From positions 186,001 to 250,000 of the forward strand of contig NZ_FOAF01000005.1 in the NCBI RefSeq assembly GCF_900109575.1: a DNA stretch of 64,000 nt. Direction: 5' to 3'. How positions within the stretch are numbered: position 1 is the stretch's first letter; the number at the start of each line of letters is the position of its first letter. Both the position numbers and the translations under genes were made by a program. Below the pieces are notes generated by a model, which ran no database searches, was not told the DNA's origin, and was given only the letters and a program-made list of their open reading frames with translations. This DNA comes from Olivibacter domesticus. GTDB taxonomy: Bacteria > Bacteroidota > Bacteroidia > Sphingobacteriales > Sphingobacteriaceae. This document shows positions 2,178 through 53,709 of this stretch, piece after piece.

Positions 2178-5100
2178 CTACTGAAGCAATATTCTTAAAT
2201 TAAAGCCAAAATTACTATAGGCAGTAGCATAGGTCTGTGAAGTATACGGTTTTACCGAATTGCTATCAAAGAACATCCTGAGGTTAAACCGATTGTTGAA
2301 CATATAATCAATAGACGGTCTATAGGTGATATTACGATTTCCTGAGGCCATTTCTGAGAACTCTGAATCGGAACGGTAAACCAGTGTTTTCATATCGTTA
2401 ATAGCCACATCTAATTTGAACGTCAGGTCATTCGAAACTTTTCTATTGGCAAACCAACCGAACGGAAATCTAAAATTCGCCACTCGATACCCTGCCCCTA
2501 ATATAAAACCTTCATCCAACAATTGTGCGAGCTGACTATTTTGTAAACTTAAACTTAATGTCCGTGCTTTACGGTATTCCGCATTCGCTGTTAAATTATT
2601 TTTAAAGCGAGCATTAACCCCTAGCAGCGGCAAAAACTGCTCTTGTAAAGTAATTTGTGAGAATTGGTATTGCGGCAAAAAATTACCATTTACATCTTTT
2701 ACAGAAGAACCACCATTAACCTCTCCATATCTAATTAAAGTGGTGTAACCATTTACATTATATAACGTACGGTAGCCATGCACCAATTCCAATGACGATA
2801 GGAACTCGCTAAAGAAAGGATTTTTAGCTAAGCCGTTATACATAATACGCCAGTTAGGGATCGGTATCCGTGGAAAATTACCTAAACTCTGTTTGGATGC
2901 ATTTTTTCCTGTATAAGCGGCCAAGAAAGCAGCCACTACCACATCTTGAGAAGCCCTGCCATACCCGTCCGCAAAACCTTCTGTCTCCCCCTGTGAGTTG
3001 GGATTCCGTTCTCCTAAACGTTTTGAAATAATCCCTCTATTTCTTTCAAAGGTTCTAAAAAGACCATCCTTGTTCGAGAAGGCTGTTAGTAAAGAGAAGA
3101 AAGATACGCTGTAATCTCCAGCAGTTACAGGCGTAACCTGTTGAAAGGTGCTCGTATTTTCGTCAAACAATATCTGTGTAGTAAAATTTTTATTCTCAAC
3201 ACGAGTAGCTGTCAGGTCCACGCGCAGATCCCTTATCGGCTCCAAAGTTGCTCGGATGCTTAGGTCTTCACGCAAAGATTTGGCATAAAACTGCGTCTGT
3301 AAGCTGTCCCTACTTAACCATCCATTGGCAATCGCTCGCCCAACAATATCGCTTTGACTACCAAATAGGAAACCTAATCCCGGTGCATTCATATCAAAAT
3401 CATATCCAAACAAATTAGTTTTACCTAAATAACCTGGTAAAAACATACCATCTACCCTTGTATAGGCCGCATTTATATCTTTGAAACCCGAAATAAAATT
3501 GGCTAGGAATGTCGTTGCGTTATTTCCTCCATTTCCATTTTTCGCATTTCTGAAGAAACTAAATTTATTAAACAATCCAACTAAATTAAACCGCGGATTT
3601 AACTGTATGGTTCTGGAATTTTGTATGCTGTTACCAATATTTAAATTAGGATCGTTTATTGCTAAAAGTGGTTGGGTCTGCCAAACAAACTGACTCCCGT
3701 ATCGGGCGGCAACATTAATCCAATCCAGACCCGGCAATTTATTTATTGGCACATCATATGTTAGGTTCATCATATGGTTATAATCGGTCGTCCTTCCCAG
3801 TCGCCAGAAATTCTCCCATAAAGTGTCTCGCTTCAATCCATCCAATCTTCCCTCAGGTTCATCAATGATGGAATAGTTAGTCGCGTTAAAATCGAGTTTT
3901 AATGAACGTGTAAGATTCCAGCTAATACCATAGAGCCTTGTCATCGTGAAATTTTTATTATAGAGTGTCCCTATATTTCCTGCTGGCAAATAGTTATCCG
4001 GAGAACTTCCCGTACGAAGTGTATTCTCCGTATAGAGACGTTGCACATCTATTCTAAAGTTTATAAAAGAAGGGAGCAGATTAAAATTTAGATCGCCTAA
4101 CAGTCTAGTGTATTTATTTTTAAAAAGCTTCTTTAACGGCTCAATATATTTCTCTTTATTCTGTACATAATCATAGGAAAAAGAGGCCCGATAATTATTC
4201 TGTACCGATTTCTCCGTAAGATAATCGCGGTGATAGAATTGTGAAAAGGCATAAGAAGCGCTAAAATTCTCAATATCCCATAGTTTTACAGGTTTTTCAT
4301 TATCCAATCGAAGCTTTCTAACATTCATAAAACTGAAGCTCTTACGTGTAGTATAATCTTGCGTAAGGCGCAGTAGCGAATCCCGCTGATCAGCATTCAA
4401 CCCCGCCAAAGCCGACTTCATCTCAATATCAGGCATCAAAGGATTATATTCAGGCGTACGCTTTTGGTTAGAATAATTGAAGAAGAATGGGATTCTGATT
4501 CCTGTCCTTTCCGGAAAGAATTTTCCTAACTCCACTGTACTGGTAACATCAAAAAACTGATCGTCCGACCGATTGCGCTCTCCTATACGTTGATCTATGG
4601 CACCAAATCCTATAGTACTTTTGCTTCCCATTAAGGTAACATCTGCAAAATCAGCCAGCTTCGCATTTAATCGGGCTGTAGCGGCCCAACCGCCCTTATC
4701 ATCATAATCCGTTAATCGCAGTTCATTGAACCAAACAATACCGGATTTCTCCAGGCCATCATCACTTGGATCTCCTTCTTTCTTCAAGGGATTTCTTACC
4801 CCTAACATGTAAAAACGGATTTTACTAATATCGGGCTGCCCCTTGATAGTAACTTTATTCGCTCCATCTGTAAAGCTATATGGAATATCAATCGGCCATG
4901 GACTTCCATCGGGCAACCTCGCTTTATTTCGTGCCTCCTTTGCGTCCTGAAACAACTTAATTTCAATATTCATTCTATTAGAAACTGGCCAGATAGCTTC
5001 CGGATCACGACTGCCGGGGATGGTTATCTCCAGTGGTATGTCATATTCATAGTAGTTATCCAAACCATCAATTCCCATCCGTAAAAACCCGTGTAAATCG

Positions 5101-8100
5101 CCCCCTTTCAACTGCTCACCTTCCGCATGGATAAACATCTGCAATCTCTTATAAGCCCTAAAATCATTGGTGGAAGTGCGATATGCCCCCTGCCCATATC
5201 CATCACTCAATCGATCAACCGTGAGTGATAATGCCTGTTCATTCAACTTCACATTGGTATTATAGTTACCATAATCTATCTGTCGCTCTATACCTGGAGG
5301 CACTACATAGGGTATTGGCTGCCTATTTCCATTTTCTTCTATATTTACCGCCGCTACTTCCAAAGTCGACTTATCTAATCCCGGTGTACCTAATTCAGGA
5401 TCAGCAATCACTTTTGTAGGGGATTTCTCAGCATTAAAACGCCTCCACTCCCCTCTTACTAATTGTAATCTTGCCATACGCAGTACCGTCGTATCAACAA
5501 AGTTTGTCATAAACATTCTCACAAAACGGATAGACTTGAAATCTTGCACATCCCCCACTCTTGATTCAAAAGCGGTAATAGGAATTCTAAACTGATACCA
5601 TTTTACTGTTTCTTTACTTCCATTAGCCAGTTCTACAGGTGCGTCGATCATATCCACAATAAAGTTTTTCCCCACCATCATGTCTTGTGGTTTAACAGAA
5701 ACTTTATACTGGTAATATTCATCCACCTGGTTCATGGTATTATCCCTATTTACATCTTCTCCATCTGGCAATAAAGTAGAAGCAGCACCATCCACCCCTG
5801 TTTCACTTTGTGATTGCTGGGCTGTTTTACTGTTTCCGTCCGTTCCATTAAATCGCTCATATCGTTTTAAGATACCTGCATTTTGGGCATCCAACTCATT
5901 ACTTCTATAATAGCTAAAGTTATCACTTGAAGGGTCATTGTTAAGCTCCTGAAAAGGTTGTGGGTTTAACGCTGCACTTGCCTGTCCTAAAAAATTTGAA
6001 AAATGATTACGTTCATCACCGTCGTTCAAGGCATCTAAACCTACGTCTTGCAATGCTCTCTGGTCGGGATTGTTAGCAAAAGCCTGCACCATCGGCTGAA
6101 GCTTAGGTACACGTCCCCAGTTAGTAAGATCCATCTGTGAATAATCACCATTAACAGGTAATGCATTTTCAACAGACCTTCTACCATCCTTTAAAATATC
6201 TTCCGAAATATTTCCCAGGTTGAAATAAAGATCTCCTCCCTGACCATTCTGTTTATAAATAAACGGATCCATCATCCACATCTCTATGAATTCAATGTTC
6301 TGCGATTCAAAATCAGGCGTTTGTATCTGCCTAAACATCCCTCCCCAGCGAGATTTAGGATTGGTTAACGTTCCATCATTATTCAGACCAGACGTAGTGT
6401 AATTATAAGGCCCTCTTATGTTAGGGTAAAAACTTAAATCGAGCGTCGACAGAAATAAGGGTTGCCCTGTAACTGTCTCTTTAAACGGAAACACTTCCTG
6501 CTCCAGCACTTCCCGTACATAGTGATTAGACAATTCCTGTAAATTGCCCCTAATATTAGGAGGTGTTAGGTTATTATTTCTATAAAATATAGGATCGATG
6601 TTATAAAAGGCTAGTCTTGCCCGGTTAAAACCGTATCGTAGATCATTATCAAATTGAGCTTCCGGAAACAATTGTGGCGTTCCTGAAATCTGCCAGCTGA
6701 TTGCACCTTTTAAATCGATCAACGATCGGCTATTTTCAAAATCATCAATATAACTAGCACCATTACTTGATCCAGCGATATTGGTGGCCTTCGAATGCCC
6801 AGGTGTCAGGTTTGCAAACTCACCATAAAAAGAGATAGAAGATTCTTCCTTCGTGTTGATGAACGGAATTTTATCCACCATCCTCGTTAACCATCTAGAA
6901 GGAGCATTGTAATTTACATCAAAACCCCACATCGTATTTGAAATAGGCTCCTGCGCTAAATTTACCTTTTGTGTCAGCGGCCTTTCAGACAAGTTCATGA
7001 TCGTACCACCTACTTGCAAATTATCATTTACAGTATAGTCCAAGCGTGTACCAAACATAGAGCGTTGCTGCATACCGAACAGTTCATTATTCTCCATTTT
7101 GATTCTAATTGCTTGGCCCGAACGCAGCATCGCTTCATTTAAAATTCGCACACGTCCGATGTCATAATCCACTGTAAAGTCAGCTCCTTCCTGTAAAGGG
7201 ATACCACCTGCAAATACCTGTACAGAACCACGTGGAATGTTGATGGCACCCAATTGAAATTCAGAACCCGCTTCCGACTCATAGGTACCTTTCATAAGAT
7301 ACCTATTCTTATTAACGAACAGCTGTTGCGCGACCACTTTAACCGAGTCGTAAAGTTCTTGGAAGGCATATTTCTCAGCCAGCGTCTCCTCTCCAGGAGC
7401 GAATAGTTTTTTTAAGTCATTACCAAAAGGTTCCACTACCGGAAAAATCACTCTACCATTCTCCGGATCAATTGTTATACCTTCTAAAAAGTCAAAAACT
7501 CCGTCCGATTGCTTATCATTCTGTGGATTCAATCGATCAAACCCAGTCAGCTGTGTCCAGAGTTTATTAGTCGTATTTCTACCCTCAAACATGACAGGGC
7601 GTTCCACTCCGGTTTCATCTTCTAGCCTGAATATATTTAATATAAAGTTATTTCTTCCTACGCGATACGCTCCAATGGAATAGATGTTTTTCATCATCAA
7701 ATCCCATATTGGCAAATTTGGTTTCAATACTTCATTTTTCAAGAGCTTTGTAAAGAGTACCTGCGGATTAGAGGGAGTAATCGGAATGTCTGTAGAAAAT
7801 TCACCCACCTGATATTCTCTTCCATTAGCTGTATAACGATAAGCCACTGTCAACACCTGATCCGCATTGAGTGGCGTATTCAAAGAGATGTAACCTAGCC
7901 GAGGATTCAATGTAAACTCCCTTTCAGTTAGTTTTCTAGCATTCGTCAGGCGTGCAAAATTATCATTCGCCCCGCTGCTCTGAAACATACTGGCCACAGC
8001 ATTTGAAGAACTGTACCTGGCATCCGGATATTGCTGTTGTAAAATTTGCAAGAGTCGGTTAGATTGTTCTGGGAAAGCAGGATCACCTACTACACCGGCT

Positions 8101-9281
8101 GCCGGCAGCGGAGAACCTCCAGGCTGGTTAAACATCGGATTCCAAGGTCTGTTCTCACCGAGGTCCATAAAACCTAATACATCGCGACTATTTTCAATGG
8201 CATTACTTCGATTCGTCACCCACACCTCAATCTGTGTAATGTTAACGTTCGTTAGTATCAAGGGAGCATTTGCCAATACCCTGCTATAATTATCACGAAA
8301 ATATTGAGCAAGAAAATAGTGCTTGTTCTGTTCGTAATCATCCGCCTTCAAAGCGAATTCATTTTGTTGTGCTCCATTGGAAATAGTAATCTCTTTACTT
8401 TGAGAGCGCTGTTGTGAGAATACGCTCGTTACACCCAACTTTCCAAACTGTAATTGTGTTTTTACCCCAAAGAGTGCTTGTGTACCTGAAATCAGGGTGG
8501 AATTTAAGGGCATGCTTACATTTCCCACCTCTATCCTGCGAATAATCGCATCATCCTTCCCTACATAATCAAGTTTTATTTGATTTTCAAAGTCGAACTG
8601 TGCTTCTGTATTATAATTGGTTATCAGTTTTAATCGATCACCTATTTGCCCTGTTAGGTTCATTTGAATCCGTTGGTCAAAGTCGAACCCTAGTTGTTTT
8701 CGCTGTCGCTCATTAAACATAGGGTTATCATTTTTGTTGTACTGCCCCATAATGGTAGCGTCAACACTTCCACGCGGTATAATATTGATCGTATTTCCGC
8801 CAAATATCTTTTCAAAAGTCGGACTGTTTACTTCAATGCTGGGAAAGAGTCCTTCTTTTCTTTTCCTTTGTGAAAATTCATCAGAAAGTTCCCGCCAGGT
8901 TCTATCTTTTAATGATCTGTTTTCATATTGTTGGTACTCATCAATGCTAAGATATTGAGGAGGGCGGTACATACTATTTCCAATATTTTCCCTTATGATA
9001 TACTGTCTGCTGATAGGATCAAAATCTACTTCTCTTTTAATGCTCCCCGGTTTCCGTAGATGGATACCATTTTCCCTTGGATATAGGTCTAAAAAAGGCT
9101 TGTCCTTAATGGGATATAAAATTTTTGTACTATCAATATCTGCTTTAGCGCTATCCTGTTTTTCGGGCAAAGCCTTCCTACTCTGGGCGTTTGAAGTCGG
9201 CAGCCCCAAGGTTAATAAACAGTTTATAAATAGCAATAAAAAAGTATAAGTGTTTCTCACATCACAGATAAATGAATGCAC
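2178..9281 (-). CDS. sprA: SprA/Sov, outer-membrane translocon of the type IX secretion system
   Basis: One uninterrupted frame of 2367 codons, close to the usual length of SprA (Flavobacterium) and Sov (Porphyromonas). A signal peptide runs to about residue 32 (LPTSNA-QS). The rest is a very long series of amphipathic beta strands with many aromatic girdle residues, ending in a typical outer-membrane stretch (FNLRILLQ). Known role: SprA is the giant single-chain barrel through which T9SS cargo crosses the outer membrane. No other T9SS gene is in the window, which is normal because T9SS genes are scattered. The start at 9281 gives a good signal peptide. Confidence 0.95.
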   Translation of the reverse strand: MHSFICDVRNTYTFLLLFINCLLTLGLPTSNAQSRKALPEKQDSAKADIDSTKILYPIKDKPFLDLYPRENGIHLRKPGSIKREVDFDPISRQYIIRENIGNSMYRPPQYLSIDEYQQYENRSLKDRTWRELSDEFSQRKRKEGLFPSIEVNSPTFEKIFGGNTINIIPRGSVDATIMGQYNKNDNPMFNERQRKQLGFDFDQRIQMNLTGQIGDRLKLITNYNTEAQFDFENQIKLDYVGKDDAIIRRIEVGNVSMPLNSTLISGTQALFGVKTQLQFGKLGVTSVFSQQRSQSKEITISNGAQQNEFALKADDYEQNKHYFLAQYFRDNYSRVLANAPLILTNVNITQIEVWVTNRSNAIENSRDVLGFMDLGENRPWNPMFNQPGGSPLPAAGVVGDPAFPEQSNRLLQILQQQYPDARYSSSNAVASMFQSSGANDNFARLTNARKLTEREFTLNPRLGYISLNTPLNADQVLTVAYRYTANGREYQVGEFSTDIPITPSNPQVLFTKLLKNEVLKPNLPIWDLMMKNIYSIGAYRVGRNNFILNIFRLEDETGVERPVMFEGRNTTNKLWTQLTGFDRLNPQNDKQSDGVFDFLEGITIDPENGRVIFPVVEPFGNDLKKLFAPGEETLAEKYAFQELYDSVKVVAQQLFVNKNRYLMKGTYESEAGSEFQLGAINIPRGSVQVFAGGIPLQEGADFTVDYDIGRVRILNEAMLRSGQAIRIKMENNELFGMQQRSMFGTRLDYTVNDNLQVGGTIMNLSERPLTQKVNLAQEPISNTMWGFDVNYNAPSRWLTRMVDKIPFINTKEESSISFYGEFANLTPGHSKATNIAGSSNGASYIDDFENSRSLIDLKGAISWQISGTPQLFPEAQFDNDLRYGFNRARLAFYNIDPIFYRNNNLTPPNIRGNLQELSNHYVREVLEQEVFPFKETVTGQPLFLSTLDLSFYPNIRGPYNYTTSGLNNDGTLTNPKSRWGGMFRQIQTPDFESQNIEFIEMWMMDPFIYKQNGQGGDLYFNLGNISEDILKDGRRSVENALPVNGDYSQMDLTNWGRVPKLQPMVQAFANNPDQRALQDVGLDALNDGDERNHFSNFLGQASAALNPQPFQELNNDPSSDNFSYYRSNELDAQNAGILKRYERFNGTDGNSKTAQQSQSETGVDGAASTLLPDGEDVNRDNTMNQVDEYYQYKVSVKPQDMMVGKNFIVDMIDAPVELANGSKETVKWYQFRIPITAFESRVGDVQDFKSIRFVRMFMTNFVDTTVLRMARLQLVRGEWRRFNAEKSPTKVIADPELGTPGLDKSTLEVAAVNIEENGNRQPIPYVVPPGIERQIDYGNYNTNVKLNEQALSLTVDRLSDGYGQGAYRTSTNDFRAYKRLQMFIHAEGEQLKGGDLHGFLRMGIDGLDNYYEYDIPLEITIPGSRDPEAIWPVSNRMNIEIKLFQDAKEARNKARLPDGSPWPIDIPYSFTDGANKVTIKGQPDISKIRFYMLGVRNPLKKEGDPSDDGLEKSGIVWFNELRLTDYDDKGGWAATARLNAKLADFADVTLMGSKSTIGFGAIDQRIGERNRSDDQFFDVTSTVELGKFFPERTGIRIPFFFNYSNQKRTPEYNPLMPDIEMKSALAGLNADQRDSLLRLTQDYTTRKSFSFMNVRKLRLDNEKPVKLWDIENFSASYAFSQFYHRDYLTEKSVQNNYRASFSYDYVQNKEKYIEPLKKLFKNKYTRLLGDLNFNLLPSFINFRIDVQRLYTENTLRTGSSPDNYLPAGNIGTLYNKNFTMTRLYGISWNLTRSLKLDFNATNYSIIDEPEGRLDGLKRDTLWENFWRLGRTTDYNHMMNLTYDVPINKLPGLDWINVAARYGSQFVWQTQPLLAINDPNLNIGNSIQNSRTIQLNPRFNLVGLFNKFSFFRNAKNGNGGNNATTFLANFISGFKDINAAYTRVDGMFLPGYLGKTNLFGYDFDMNAPGLGFLFGSQSDIVGRAIANGWLSRDSLQTQFYAKSLREDLSIRATLEPIRDLRVDLTATRVENKNFTTQILFDENTSTFQQVTPVTAGDYSVSFFSLLTAFSNKDGLFRTFERNRGIISKRLGERNPNSQGETEGFADGYGRASQDVVVAAFLAAYTGKNASKQSLGNFPRIPIPNWRIMYNGLAKNPFFSEFLSSLELVHGYRTLYNVNGYTTLIRYGEVNGGSSVKDVNGNFLPQYQFSQITLQEQFLPLLGVNARFKNNLTANAEYRKARTLSLSLQNSQLAQLLDEGFILGAGYRVANFRFPFGWFANRKVSNDLTFKLDVAINDMKTLVYRSDSEFSEMASGNRNITYRPSIDYMFNNRFNLRMFFDSNSVKPYTSQTYATAYSNFGFNLRILLQ

Positions 9282-48137: not shown

Positions 48138-48169
48138 AAAGCGAAGCAAAAAGAGCTTTGCTTCGCTTT
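48138..48169. terminator. Terminator between the AraC gene and the VWA genes
   Basis: A perfect 13-bp inverted repeat (aaagcgaagcaaa / tttgcttcgcttt) with a 6-base loop, T-run on the plus side and A-run on the other. It serves the plus-strand AraC gene and possibly the convergent VWA gene, whose stop is at 48211. Confidence 0.9.
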
Positions 48170-48210: not shown

Positions 48211-49602
48211 TTATTGGATTAAAAAGGCCACCCAGGCGATTTTTTCTACATTATGTTCCCCTCCTGATAATGGTTTGGCATACGCAACCAGCTCGTTCAT
48301 CCTGATTTTAAAGCCGGTATTGGTTACCTGAGAAATACGGAGACCCGGCGTATCCGGTCCGTTAAAAGTTTGCACTTCAGGAACCACAACCACTTGCGAT
48401 CCAACTGGATACGGTTTAGGGAACGTAACCGTTATAAATGTACTGTCGTCCCCTACTTTTGTTGCAGACGGTTTATCACTAACTAGGTCTATTACTCCTA
48501 CTTGAATTTGAAATTTTCCGCAATCATGTGTTGAATTATTTCCTGACATATCTGTTGTTTGATTATTATTTGTTCCCACTTTAAGTTTAATATCGAATCC
48601 GCCTTCGTTGTTTTCATGACCGATGTCACCATATAAGAAAACAATCTCGCCATCGCTGGGAGCAATCCAGTCGAAAACACCTGTTCCGATAGGCGTTTGC
48701 GTATCGCCTATTTGAACAAACAGCCGACCAACTTGGGAATTTTCCTTGTGACCTTGAGGACCATGCCATGGATAATCAGCTCCATATTTAGCAAATCCGG
48801 AAGCAAGAATATCAATTTTGTCACCTTTTTTAACCTGAATGCCGGTTCTGACTCCTTCAGCCTGCACAGCAGGAAGATAACCTTCCCAGCGTTGAGAAAC
48901 GCAGGGATCTTTATCCTTACAACCGCAAGGATTTTCTTTCTCCTCAATACTTTCCTCTTGGGGCACTTTACTAGCGCAGATGGTCTTCTTGAGCACATCT
49001 TTAAAATTGGCCATTCCGGAAGTATGAATAAAATGCTCACCGCCCGTTTTTGAAGCCAGGCGTGTAAACTCTTCGATCATGTCCTCCTCATCCTTTTTGG
49101 TAGGATAAGGTGTATGTGGAGCGCCCAAATATGTATTTACTTTAACATTATGTTTAAGTGCCGTGGCGATAGCATTGTCATTTGCCTTAACAGCTGCAGG
49201 CGTAACCACCATCTCACCGGCGTCAAGCGATTCATCCTGTAATAGGAATATAGCGCGTTCAGCCCCCTCGCGCCAGTCATAATGTTCACTCACATCTTCT
49301 ACTGCGCGGGCGCCATCTTCGTTAGCACCGGCGCCGGGTAATGATTTCCTTACTCTGCTTTTTAACGATGCCGCATTAACACCTTTTTTGGTTAGGTAAT
49401 TTCTAATGGTCTCGTCAAATTTGGTATTTTCAAATGTTCCTTCGATTCCAAGGTAATCCACCCTTAAATCAGACGGACAGGAACTTTTAGCTTCATCAAC
49501 AGCACTAGCGATTGCCTTGCTGATTGCTTCTGCTGTACTTTTCATTGATCCGCTCGTATCAATTACGATGACAAGATCTACCTTTTTTGTATTTTCGCTC
49601 AT
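48211..49602 (-). CDS. VWA protein with LecA-like and H-type lectin domains
   Basis: A 463-residue protein with no signal peptide. A von Willebrand A domain covers about 8-215, with MIDAS start DTSGS (15-19). A Cys-containing joint (about 212-235) follows. The next domain (about 240-350; GDKIDILASGFAKYGAD, then WHGPQGH, and IGTGVFDWIAPSDGEIVFLY) resembles the calcium- and galactose-binding LecA/PA-IL lectin of Pseudomonas. The last 95 residues (FITVTFPKPYPVGSQVVVVP ... EKIAWVAFLIQ) resemble an H-type lectin domain. It should bind sugars; where is unclear. It lacks the Pro/Lys linker of its two paralogues. Confidence 0.85.
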   Translation of the reverse strand: MSENTKKVDLVIVIDTSGSMKSTAEAISKAIASAVDEAKSSCPSDLRVDYLGIEGTFENTKFDETIRNYLTKKGVNAASLKSRVRKSLPGAGANEDGARAVEDVSEHYDWREGAERAIFLLQDESLDAGEMVVTPAAVKANDNAIATALKHNVKVNTYLGAPHTPYPTKKDEEDMIEEFTRLASKTGGEHFIHTSGMANFKDVLKKTICASKVPQEESIEEKENPCGCKDKDPCVSQRWEGYLPAVQAEGVRTGIQVKKGDKIDILASGFAKYGADYPWHGPQGHKENSQVGRLFVQIGDTQTPIGTGVFDWIAPSDGEIVFLYGDIGHENNEGGFDIKLKVGTNNNQTTDMSGNNSTHDCGKFQIQVGVIDLVSDKPSATKVGDDSTFITVTFPKPYPVGSQVVVVPEVQTFNGPDTPGLRISQVTNTGFKIRMNELVAYAKPLSGGEHNVEKIAWVAFLIQ

Positions 49603-49683
49603 TTTAATTTTCCTCGGTTGTTATAGTTATTTGTCTATAGAGTCGGCTACCATGTTAATTCTTAAGCACCGACATAAGCAGCA

Positions 49684-49720
49684 TCTATTGGGCGATATCT
49701 GTAAAAACCTCTCCAATAGA
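49684..49720 (-). terminator. Inverted repeat between VWA genes
   Basis: An 8-bp inverted repeat (tctattgg at 49684-49691, ccaataga at 49713-49720) with a 21-base loop, 27 bases after the stop of the middle VWA gene. A possible weak terminator. Confidence 0.4.
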
Positions 49721-49746
49721 TTTATACCGCAATTTAAGTGATATGA

Positions 49747-51600
49747 CTAAGCGATTTTTGGATATGCCCGAGAGGAAAGATTTCCATAAGAAGCACTTCC
49801 CCAACCACCATCGTATATTTTTTCTACCTTCTCTGGTGATGAAAAATTTGACTTCGCAATGAACCGCTTTGCGCCGCCACTTCCCTTTATGCCTCCTGCC
49901 AGATAAACACCGCCGTGGCTATCGAAGGCGAGGCCAAAGTACGAACACTTTTCGCCTGCTTCACCCGCACTAGCAAATTGACAAAGGTACTTGGCTTCCC
50001 AGTCGGTGCCCTGCGTATTATCCACCCGCCATGCACGCCCGCTAGAATCCAATAGGTAGGCGCGATCATCGCCATCGAAGGCTATATCAATGATACCTGT
50101 TCCGTTACCGAAAGGTTGATGTGGATTGCCCGCCGCACCTTTTACCTGTACAGTACTATAGTTGGTTTGCGGGTGCTTAAAGGTATAGATTTTTCCACCC
50201 TCAATAGCTGAGAAGAAAAAACCTGTATCATCTTTCCTAAAAGCAAAAGCATCTTTCCCTTTTCCTCCAGATAAACCTCTCAAGTATTCAAAGTTTTGCC
50301 CTTCCTTTCGCCGATAAATCTGGTTAGCTTGCCAGCCAAAATAATGGGTACCATCAGAAGTAGTAGCATTACTCCAGCCCGCTCCGTGTTGATTATCGAT
50401 TGCTTTCCGAATCCGTTCTCCATTGCCACCGTTATGGACATAAATATCCCCATTATCTGCTTGGTTCCCTGGAAAGGCCCCGTCGTAATAAGTAATGGCG
50501 TAGATTTGATCGATTTCGCTGTAGGTCGGTGTGGCCGGAGGAGCAGGTTTTTCTCCTACTGGTTTCTCGGCTACCGGTTTTTCTGGAGTAGGCTTATTTT
50601 CAACAGGCTTGTCTGGAGCAGGCTTATTCTCCGTAGGTTTTTCAGTTGGTTTTGGATCTACAGGTTTAGGTGTTGCCGGTGTTGTTGTCTCGTTAGCAGG
50701 TTTTTTGTCCTTACACTTGCAATCCTCGTCATGCTCTTTTGCGTTCTTACATACCTCCTCAAAGTTTTTAAGAAAAGTTGTTAGTGTATTGATAGCTTTC
50801 GCGATTTCCGGTAACTGGTCGCAGAGATCAGTACAAGTTAATTTCCCTCCCGTTGGCTTATCTGTAGATGTCTCTTCCTTAGGTTTATCCGTCGGCTTGT
50901 CTTCCAAATCATCCGCTTCATCTTTTTTATCATCGATACTCACCTCCTGTGGGATTTTGCTGGCACAGATGGTATCTTTTAATACCTTTTTAAAATCCGG
51001 TAGTCCGTTAATATATATATTGTGGTCACCCCCCGTCCGCAATGCAAGACGCTTAAACTCCTTGATCATATTCTCCTCATCTTGCTTCGTGGGGTATTTC
51101 AGGCTTGCGTCCGGCGTTCCCAGATAAGTATGTACCTTCACCTCATTTTTAATAGCGGTAGCGATAGCATTATTATTTGCCTTAATACCCGCAGGCGTAA
51201 CCACCATATCACCGGCATCAAGTGATTCATCCTGCAATAAAAATATCGAACGTTCAGCGCCTTCCCTCCAATCGTAATGTTCACTCACATCTTCCACTGC
51301 ACGGGCACCATCTTCATTGGCACCGGCATTCGCTAACGATTTCCTTACTCTACTTTTTAACGATGCAGCATCAACACCTACTTTTTGAGTTAAGTAACTT
51401 CTAACGGTTTCGTCAAATTTGGTATTCTCAAAGGTTCCTTCAATTCCTAGGTAATCCACACGCAGATCAGACGGACAGTCACTTTTGGCTTGTTCCACTG
51501 CAGCACTGATGGCTGCACTTAAGGCCTGTGCTTCATCTTTCATAGATCCACTTGTATCTATCACGATGACAAGGTCTACTTTTTTCGTGTTGTCGCTCAT
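49747..51600 (-). CDS. VWA protein with Cys-rich region, Pro/Lys linker and propeller-like C-terminus
   Basis: A 617-residue protein with no signal peptide. VWA domain about 8-215 (DTSGS at 15-19), nearly the same as in the downstream gene. A short acidic Lys/Pro linker (222-252) leads to a helical segment with five Cys (KLTCTDLCDQLPEIAKAINT; later EEVCKNAKEHDEDCKCKDKK). A 55-residue linker of repeated KPxxxKP units (301-357) follows. Residues 360-617 have repeated beta-propeller-like strands (QIYAITYYDG, GKIYTFKHPQ, RAYLLDSSGRAWRVDNTQG, GVYLAGG). Ligand unknown. Confidence 0.85.
   Translation of the reverse strand: MSDNTKKVDLVIVIDTSGSMKDEAQALSAAISAAVEQAKSDCPSDLRVDYLGIEGTFENTKFDETVRSYLTQKVGVDAASLKSRVRKSLANAGANEDGARAVEDVSEHYDWREGAERSIFLLQDESLDAGDMVVTPAGIKANNNAIATAIKNEVKVHTYLGTPDASLKYPTKQDEENMIKEFKRLALRTGGDHNIYINGLPDFKKVLKDTICASKIPQEVSIDDKKDEADDLEDKPTDKPKEETSTDKPTGGKLTCTDLCDQLPEIAKAINTLTTFLKNFEEVCKNAKEHDEDCKCKDKKPANETTTPATPKPVDPKPTEKPTENKPAPDKPVENKPTPEKPVAEKPVGEKPAPPATPTYSEIDQIYAITYYDGAFPGNQADNGDIYVHNGGNGERIRKAIDNQHGAGWSNATTSDGTHYFGWQANQIYRRKEGQNFEYLRGLSGGKGKDAFAFRKDDTGFFFSAIEGGKIYTFKHPQTNYSTVQVKGAAGNPHQPFGNGTGIIDIAFDGDDRAYLLDSSGRAWRVDNTQGTDWEAKYLCQFASAGEAGEKCSYFGLAFDSHGGVYLAGGIKGSGGAKRFIAKSNFSSPEKVEKIYDGGWGSASYGNLSSRAYPKIA
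50530..50700 (-). repeat. Low-complexity Pro/Lys/Thr/Glu linker coding repeat
   Basis: Encodes about 57 residues built from KPTE, KPVE, KPAP-like units of roughly five residues. The third VWA gene has a similar but longer and differently arranged block (codons about 311-372, 52594-52779). Such blocks often change length by slippage. Confidence 0.7.
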
Positions 51601-51736
51601 TTTTTTGTTCTTTTTACGTTAAAAATTATTGATTGTTTTATTATTAGATGATCATTCCCCTCTATAAGTCTCCTAGGCAAGCGTTCATTTACCAAAATAA
51701 AGATGGGAATTCATAATATTAAGAACTTTGGATTCA

Positions 51737-51777
51737 GATTCCGCCAGCCAGGTAGTATTAACTTGACTAGCGGAATC
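51737..51777 (-). terminator. Long stem-loop after the third VWA gene
   Basis: Perfect 8-bp outer arms (gattccgc at 51737-51744; gcggaatc at 51770-51777), extended inward with a few mismatches. It starts 16 bases past the stop at 51793. T-containing but not T-run sequence follows. Each VWA gene thus seems to have its own 3' structure. Confidence 0.6.
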
Positions 51778-51792
51778 ATCTCCTTATTTAAC

Positions 51793-53709
51793 TTACAGCG
51801 CAAATTTTGGATAAGCGCGGGAAGCCAGGTTACCATAAGAAGCGCTACCCCAAGGTCCCTGATAAATCCGTTCTAATTTATCCGGCGAAGCAAAACTTGA
51901 TTTTACGATAAAACGCATTGCCCAACCATTGTGCAGATTCCCACCCGAAAGATACACGCCGCCATGACTGTCAAAAGCCAAGCCGTAGTAATCACATCTT
52001 TCACCTGCCTGGCCGGAAAATGAAGGTGAAAATTTACAGAGATGCTTAGCTACAAGGTCCGTGCCTTTCGTATTATCCACACGCCAGATATGTCCAGATA
52101 CTGACATTAAATAGAGACGATCATCTCCATCAAAGTTGATATCAGAGATCATGTTCTCAAATTGGGTAGTAAAAGGCTGCAGAGGGTCGCCTGCCGTACC
52201 CCTCACCTGTACGGTATTATAAGTGGTTTGAGGATGTTGAAAGGTATAGATTTTTCCCCCTTCATATGCACTATAGAAAAAGCCTACATCATCTTTCCTA
52301 AAAGCAAAGCCATCTTTTCCTCTTCCTCCTGATAAGCCTCTTAGGTATTCAAGACGTTGGCCCTCCTTACCTCTATAAATCTGATTTGGGTTCCAGGCTA
52401 AGTAGTGGGTTTGATCCGAAGTAAGCCCATTACTTTGACCACTTCCAACAGAACTTTCGATCGCTTTTCTTAGAAGTTCTCCAGATCCACCACGGTGCGC
52501 ATAAATATCACCATTGTCATTAGGTTGATTATTTATCTTCATTACACCGTTATCCAAAACAATTGCGAAAATCTCATCAACTTCTGTGTAAACCGGAGCT
52601 GTCGGTGTCGCGGGTTTTTCTGGTGTTACCGCCGGCTTTTCTGCCACAGGCTTTTGTGGTGTAGTTTCCGTCGTTGCTGGCTTCTCTGCGACCGGTTTCT
52701 CCTCCACGGGTTTTTCTACTGGTTTCGAATCTTCAGGTTTAGGCGTTACGGGTGTTGTCGTCTCGTTAGCCGGTTTTTTATCCTTACACTTGCAATCTTC
52801 ATCATGCTCTTTTGCGTTCTTACATACCTCTTCAAAGTTTTTAAGAAAGGTTGTTAGTGTATCGACAGCCTTTGCAATTTCCGGTAACTGATCACAGAGA
52901 TCCGTGCAGGTTAATTTTCCTACTGTTGGCTTATCTGTGGGCGTCTCTTCCTTAGGCTTATCCGTTGGTTTTTCTTCTGTTGGTTTATCAGTCGGTTTGT
53001 CTGCCGGCACCTCTTTGTCCAAGTTATCGGCTTCATCCTTTTTATCTTCGATACTTTCTTCCTGTGGAATTTTACTGGCGCATATGGTATCTTTTAGCAC
53101 CTTCTTAAAATCTGGCAATCCGTTAACGTATATATTATGGTCACCCCCAGTCCGCAATGCGAGGCGCTTAAATTCCTTGATCATATCCTCCTCAGCTTCC
53201 TTTGAAGGATATTGCAAACTTGCATCCGGAGTGCCTAGATACGTATGTACCTTCACTTCATTTTTTAAAGCAGCTTCAATCGCCTTATCATTCGCTTCGA
53301 TAGCTGACGGTGTCACGATCATGTCGCCCCCATCGAGCGACTCGTCCTGAAGCAAAAAAATGGCTCGTTCAGCACCTTCCCGCCATTTATTATGTTCACT
53401 GAGATCTTCCACCACGCGTGCACCATCCTCTTGAGCACCAGAACCTGGCAACGATTTTCTTAACCGACTTTTAAAGGCCTTCGGATCAGCTCCTGCTTTC
53501 GTTAAATGGCCTCTCACCGTTTCAACGAATTTGGTACCCGGGAAAGTACCTTCAATCCCTAGGTAAGTCACCCGTAAATCAGATGGGCAAGCTTTTTTAG
53601 CTTCACTTACGGCAGCCTCAATAGCAGCACTGATTGCCTGCGCTTCATCCTTCATGGAATTGCTCGTATCTATTGCGATGACGAGATCTACTTTTTTTGT
53701 TTCGCTCAT
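51793..53709 (-). CDS. VWA protein with Cys-rich region, Pro/Lys linkers and propeller-like C-terminus (paralogue)
   Basis: A 638-residue paralogue of the gene at 49747-51600 with the same layout: no signal peptide; VWA domain (MIDAS DTSNS at 14-18, with Asn where the others have Gly); Lys/Pro linker (222-263); the five-Cys segment at 265-312, almost identical to its neighbour; a longer linker (313-372); and propeller-like repeats (375-638). The Cys segment and its codons are far better conserved between the two than the propeller part, which suggests recent duplication or gene conversion. Confidence 0.85.
   Translation of the reverse strand: MSETKKVDLVIAIDTSNSMKDEAQAISAAIEAAVSEAKKACPSDLRVTYLGIEGTFPGTKFVETVRGHLTKAGADPKAFKSRLRKSLPGSGAQEDGARVVEDLSEHNKWREGAERAIFLLQDESLDGGDMIVTPSAIEANDKAIEAALKNEVKVHTYLGTPDASLQYPSKEAEEDMIKEFKRLALRTGGDHNIYVNGLPDFKKVLKDTICASKIPQEESIEDKKDEADNLDKEVPADKPTDKPTEEKPTDKPKEETPTDKPTVGKLTCTDLCDQLPEIAKAVDTLTTFLKNFEEVCKNAKEHDEDCKCKDKKPANETTTPVTPKPEDSKPVEKPVEEKPVAEKPATTETTPQKPVAEKPAVTPEKPATPTAPVYTEVDEIFAIVLDNGVMKINNQPNDNGDIYAHRGGSGELLRKAIESSVGSGQSNGLTSDQTHYLAWNPNQIYRGKEGQRLEYLRGLSGGRGKDGFAFRKDDVGFFYSAYEGGKIYTFQHPQTTYNTVQVRGTAGDPLQPFTTQFENMISDINFDGDDRLYLMSVSGHIWRVDNTKGTDLVAKHLCKFSPSFSGQAGERCDYYGLAFDSHGGVYLSGGNLHNGWAMRFIVKSSFASPDKLERIYQGPWGSASYGNLASRAYPKFAL

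Follow-up and report, generated by a model that had tools for sequence, protein, structure and literature searches.

The lectins LecA (PA-IL) and PllA are single-domain tetramers without a signal peptide. LecA homologues and LecA-type superlectins have already been published, among them EclA, in which LecA is joined to a second sugar-binding domain; this C-terminal domain of EclA (EclA-C, 6yf6) binds fucose through calcium (PMC11875179). In Enterobacter ludwigii, a "carbohydrate-binding protein" gene combining VWA with EclA-C was found beside LecA genes (PMC11875179). Propeller lectins are known from Photorhabdus, in which the PLL lectins, built of seven W-motif blades and free of VWA domains, are encoded by a cluster of five genes with no recognised signal peptide, and two of the products were detected extracellularly (PMC12203525). 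Furthermore, the MoxR-vWA ternary systems combine a vWA with a C-terminal beta-propeller in variable architectures, next to a MoxR AAA+ ATPase and a third component (PMC7159879).

A tandem set of three genes comparable to these systems was analysed in Olivibacter domesticus, within a window of 64,000 nucleotides (the whole stretch of DNA under analysis). An ORF check agreed with the original prediction on coordinates and minus strand: P0003 (51793-53709, 638 aa) and P0002 (49747-51600, 617 aa) each consist of a VWA half, a Cys-helix, a Pro/Lys linker and a beta-propeller, while P0001 (48211-49602, 463 aa) consists of a VWA half, a LecA-like domain and an H-type or tail-fibre-like lectin domain. 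The gaps between the genes are 192 bp (P0003/P0002) and 144 bp (P0002/P0001), and the reading frames are intact in all three copies. Since a strong terminator-like stem of 13 bp (48138-48169, between the convergent AraC gene and P0001) ends the block and no comparable minus-strand terminator was found between the three genes, they are likely to be carried on one transcript. The surrounding genes are ordinary: they encode an AraC regulator, an isochorismatase, regulators of the NmrA-like, HxlR-like and MarR-like kinds, a sigma factor and SusC/SusD. An Rfam search was empty, and an empty-site comparison found no syntenic copy of a flanking gene in four congeners. Elsewhere in the window, a 2367-aa ORF (2178-9281, minus strand), long for its neighbourhood, has a hydrophobic stretch near its N-terminus.

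The VWA halves occupy 48940-49602 in P0001, 50935-51600 in P0002 and 53044-53709 in P0003, all on the minus strand. Their Pfam VWA scores fall under the cut-off (E 0.001-0.05), but fold and residues place them in the VWA family with a MIDAS of the DxSxS...D type. The AF2 model showed a VWA fold at high confidence, with BatB, integrin I domains and the SpaC pilus adhesin as Foldseek neighbours, and the MIDAS residues (D15-x-S17-x-S19 and D123 in P0001) were invariant in 26/26 aligned homologues. The VWA assignment made by the original prediction is upheld by these results; its description of the halves as near-identical was overstated, as pairwise identity is 78% for P0001/P0002, 78% for P0002/P0003 and 68% for P0001/P0003.

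The LecA-like domain of P0001 (48571-48891, minus strand) was recognised firmly, as had been proposed, by PF07828 (E 1.8e-12; residues 239-340, 47.8 bits against a curated cut-off of 22.5) and by PllA (E 1.6e-13). The alignment to PllA matches the KYG tyrosine and, in the calcium loop, the Asp and the Asn-Asn; the calcium/sugar loop is two residues shorter than that of PllA, which counts against a lectin function. The domain may bind galactosides in a calcium-dependent manner. The last domain (48214-48522, minus strand) had been called an H-type lectin. Its PF09458 score is below the curated cut-off (17.3 bits against 24; E 0.005 for the domain alone), and a gp53-like tail-fibre C domain scores similarly (E 0.03), with a PHROG tail fibre at 2e-6; the class is thus less secure than the module itself, which is conserved at 49-54% identity in L097, L123 and L124 with 36 invariant columns and is a genuine domain. 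Small cyanobacterial proteins (L123:2259-3498, L124:2687-3193) consist of this H-lectin/gp53-like module alone, two near-identical copies standing in tandem in L123. Since these proteins, to which the P0001 domain is 54% identical, start with a classical-looking signal sequence, the module would work outside cells in those cyanobacteria.

In P0002 and P0003, the VWA half is followed by a Cys-rich helical segment (50707-50846 in P0002, with C-x3-C ... C-x-C and a helix at 256-286; 52777-52916 in P0003, 96% identical), a Pro/Lys/Glu-rich linker (50521-50706, disordered with pLDDT under 50; 52591-52776, seen in the sequence) and a beta-propeller (49750-50520; 51796-52590), all on the minus strand. 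The P0002 propeller was modelled by AF2 with pLDDT about 90, and VIA gave Z 15.5 and an rmsd of 3.6 over 209 residues, with six-bladed designed and YWTD propellers as the best matches. Sequence, AF2 and VIA together confirmed the helices, linkers and propeller-like domains of the original prediction. Structure modelling, which it had proposed as a check, settled the VWA and P0002 propeller folds; of the P0001 model, the VWA part was usable and the lectin half was not. The P0002 propeller found no match up to E 1 among the sequences of solved structures in the PDB. Its fold is generic, and this, together with the missing sequence match, counts against a lectin reading; a PLL-type lectin does not appear in the VIA-align list for the propeller, an absence that does not exclude one.

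Compared with the described systems, the window proteins share parts with each and coincide with none. P0001 holds a PA-IL domain at residues 238-344 and resembles LecA and PllA in lacking a signal peptide, but also contains a VWA head and a further lectin-like domain. EclA and the E. ludwigii protein offer the same kinds of partnership, LecA with a second sugar-binding domain and VWA with EclA-C next to LecA genes (PMC11875179), whereas the window proteins form a tandem Bacteroidota set in which VWA is fused to LecA plus H-lectin or to a propeller. No 6yf6 match was found among their hits, so that the EclA-type combination of LecA with EclA-C is absent here; it is present in L117, and an EclA-C tail in L020. 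The Photorhabdus PLL proteins, tandem and signal-less as well, have no sequence match to P0002. The window genes also differ from the MoxR-vWA ternary systems, since no adjacent MoxR AAA+ gene or third component was found among the AraC, isochorismatase, NmrA-like and HxlR-like flanks. The earlier suggestion of an undescribed system is not supported in that form, because superlectins, signal-less propeller lectins and one VWA-EclA-C protein have been published (PMC12203525, PMC11875179). In the open-access literature that was searched, no description was found of a VWA-LecA-H-lectin fusion, of a propeller tail common to LecA and VWA heads, of a VWA family across four phyla or of a recombining tandem set.

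The proposed pattern of a shared N-terminus with swapped C-terminal readers is real and extends far beyond this locus. VWA heads were found with EclA-C/CBM_4_9 tails in Serratia and Pantoea, the Serratia tail matching 6yf6 at 2.4e-20; with propellers of the window type in Winslowiella and Ralstonia; with another propeller and long coiled coils in Nostocales; with DUF1349 in Sorangium; and with an OmpA peptidoglycan-binding domain in Citreicoccus. A stand-alone relative of the Nostocales propeller in Lyngbya matches DUF4394/DUF6923, and the parts that Nostoc has as a fusion are encoded in Lyngbya by individual genes of one cluster. In one Enterobacteriaceae-type genome (G725), LecA heads carry helix, linker and propeller in one gene and EclA-C in another, two further LecA genes stand alone, and VWA heads carry a helix, a helix with linker and propeller, or an H-lectin. 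Since LecA-headed proteins have the same Cys-helix-linker-propeller or EclA-C tails as VWA-headed ones, both heads, judged from their sequences, draw on one common pool of tails. In L094 and L095, LecA genes directly adjoin VWA genes, and the two domains are fused in P0001. When 346 Enterobacterales genomes were searched for the LecA-propeller protein, the true protein came back only from its own genome, all other matches being to the Pro/Lys linker.

Several relatives depart from this scheme. Proteus and Providencia commonly carry a VWA-Cys-helix gene that has no lectin tail; this is counted against a lectin reading and implies that this core has some role without a fused reader. It occurs as a single gene in many species (L008, L023, L024, L026, L031, L032 and others), in L008 between adenosine-deaminase-like and ydgA-like genes. 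VWA proteins of myxobacteria (L030, L034, L046, L047, L049) and cyanobacteria (L022, L052) have unnamed N-terminal domains (LDLVFWD...DWNQWRYIPDGLGG; TFxVxNxDGSxxGKGCFTxE) and a conserved CCCQxxVE-type motif at the end. In a Ralstonia propeller protein (L058:9581-11314), the central part of the VWA domain is missing (about residues 61-159); the head seems to have decayed and the tail is intact. L050 and L029 have a haem peroxidase and a catalase-like gene downstream of the VWA-propeller gene; such oxylipin-type neighbours (with a lipase in one case) were seen at only two cyanobacterial loci and were given no functional weight.

The family is rare. Other VWA plus lectin or propeller arrays in Sphingobacteriaceae, a check named in the original prediction, did not appear: among 300 genomes of its family and 394 of its phylum (some 690 other Bacteroidota), nothing close to the VWA half was seen, the best match reaching E 2.4e-6 at 30% identity, and 150 genomes of the family yielded no close relative of the lectin half. 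Scanning about 85,000 species genomes turned up 40 loci, which lie in Serratia, Pantoea, Winslowiella, Proteus, Providencia, Ralstonia, Nostocales, other cyanobacteria and the myxobacteria Sorangium, Polyangium, Nannocystis and Citreicoccus. Even in these groups it is uncommon, being present in 6/198 genomes of the Enterobacteriaceae-type family, 3/144 of the Sorangium class and 8/196 of the Nostocales-type order, where two more matches are to the H-lectin module alone. Since the window VWA is 59-67% identical to its Enterobacterales homologues and lacks close relatives in its own family and phylum, lateral acquisition by the lineage of the window would be the simplest account. A viral origin was rejected, as viral contigs yielded nothing related to the VWA, the propeller or the H-lectin module, and phage records nothing related to P0001 or P0002.

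Within the set, the N-half of P0002 is like P0001 to about codon 148 and then like P0003 as far as the linker, a switch reached in 0/20000 permutations, and the N-halves of the three genes are, on these sequence grounds, recombination mosaics. The propellers of P0002 and P0003 are 65% identical, while that of P0002 is 74% identical to its counterpart in G725; for the VWA, P0002 is only 49% identical to the same G725 gene, against 78% to its window neighbours. This cross-genome discordance, in a direction that the trees favour, is suggestive only. A proof by trees, with the P0002 propeller but not its VWA as sister to L096, fails on the weak pairing of the propellers (74/80; AU for P2+P3 p 0.187) and on an alternative VWA clade, P1-P3+L096, which is not rejected (p 0.38), although P2+L096 alone is rejected for the VWA (p 0.029).

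The absence of an export signal, claimed before, was upheld. In all three genes, the seventh codon before the ATG is an in-frame stop, and the first VWA strand begins at residue 7, so that a missed upstream signal peptide is ruled out. NCBIfam detected no sorting tail. The genome has no VipB (T6SS) or phage-type sheath gene, which counts against export by such systems, and cargo of a T6SS or other contractile system was rejected. As the PLL lectins, two of which were found outside cells, lack signals too (PMC12203525), the missing signal doesn't imply action inside the cell.

In the best explanation, given about even odds, P0001-P0003 would be laterally acquired and locally expanded modular lectins, signal-less and released outside the producing cell. 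The gene set would have been taken up from a pool shared with Enterobacterales and afterwards expanded in tandem. Glycans may be bound by the C-terminal modules, namely the LecA-like and H-lectin-like ones of P0001 and the propellers of P0002 and P0003. The VWA head, because it stands where LecA does in sister proteins, may bind a protein or a partner head through its metal site, and the Cys-helix may oligomerise. The products would most likely be multivalent cross-linkers, with sugar-reading tails on one side and the metal-dependent VWA head and Cys-helix on the other. Release could follow lysis or another non-classical route, as seems to be the case for LecA-type and PLL lectins, and once outside the proteins may serve in adhesion or aggregation, or recognise host or neighbour cells. 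This reading is built on the architecture, the conserved metal site, the adjacency of the genes and relatedness to a domain proven to bind sugar; it draws on the P0001 LecA domain, the adjacency and fusion of LecA and VWA, the common tails, the EclA-C match, the invariant MIDAS, the signal-less extracellular PLL lectins, the N-half recombination and the pattern of lateral acquisition.

Three other explanations were considered. Cytosolic conflict or defence proteins, in which a co-chaperone-like VWA would bind peptides and the C-termini would sense glycans or proteins of invaders, would fit the absent export signal and the pattern of Kaur et al. 2020 (PMC7159879), a constant vWA with variable C-termini and a propeller. 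In Nostocales and relatives (L050, L048, L055, L033, L028, L041), the VWA-propeller gene does have an AAA_35 ATPase gene and a pentapeptide-repeat gene divergently upstream of it. However, no MoxR, VMAP, FtsH or other ATPase gene was found near the window or Enterobacterales genes, and the tails appear to resemble sugar-binding rather than effector domains, which makes this unlikely; a known defence system was rejected, since PADLOC returned nothing. The OmpA domain of the Citreicoccus homologue and the pilus adhesins among the fold neighbours would suit envelope or matrix proteins exported without a recognisable signal, namely surface adhesins like the VWA pilus-tip adhesins. Pro/Lys linkers, typical of extracellular stalks, also speak for them, but a signal peptide, a sorting tail and dedicated secretion genes were looked for and none was found, so that such adhesins are quite improbable. 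The tail-less genes of Proteus and Providencia would agree with a tandem duplicate of a horizontally acquired housekeeping-like cytosolic gene, for example in metal-dependent assembly, with an incidental resemblance to sugar-binding proteins. The repeated pairing of VWA heads with different lectin modules, and metal site and frames intact in all three copies, leave this a very slim chance.

If the proteins are modular lectins, they may, as a more tentative and somewhat doubtful extension, form a combinatorial unexported repertoire, in which interchangeable VWA and LecA heads and recombining glycan-reading tails that cross phyla would diversify recognition rather than serve a single adhesin. 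LecA-type lectins are drug targets, and at issue here are the assembly of their relatives and the meaning of the absent signal peptide. The recombining N-halves make diversification testable through strain sequencing. The sharing of the same sugar-reading tails by VWA and LecA heads gives a direct way into the role of the VWA head, and the tandem set of this environmental-type Bacteroidota genome lends itself to such a study.
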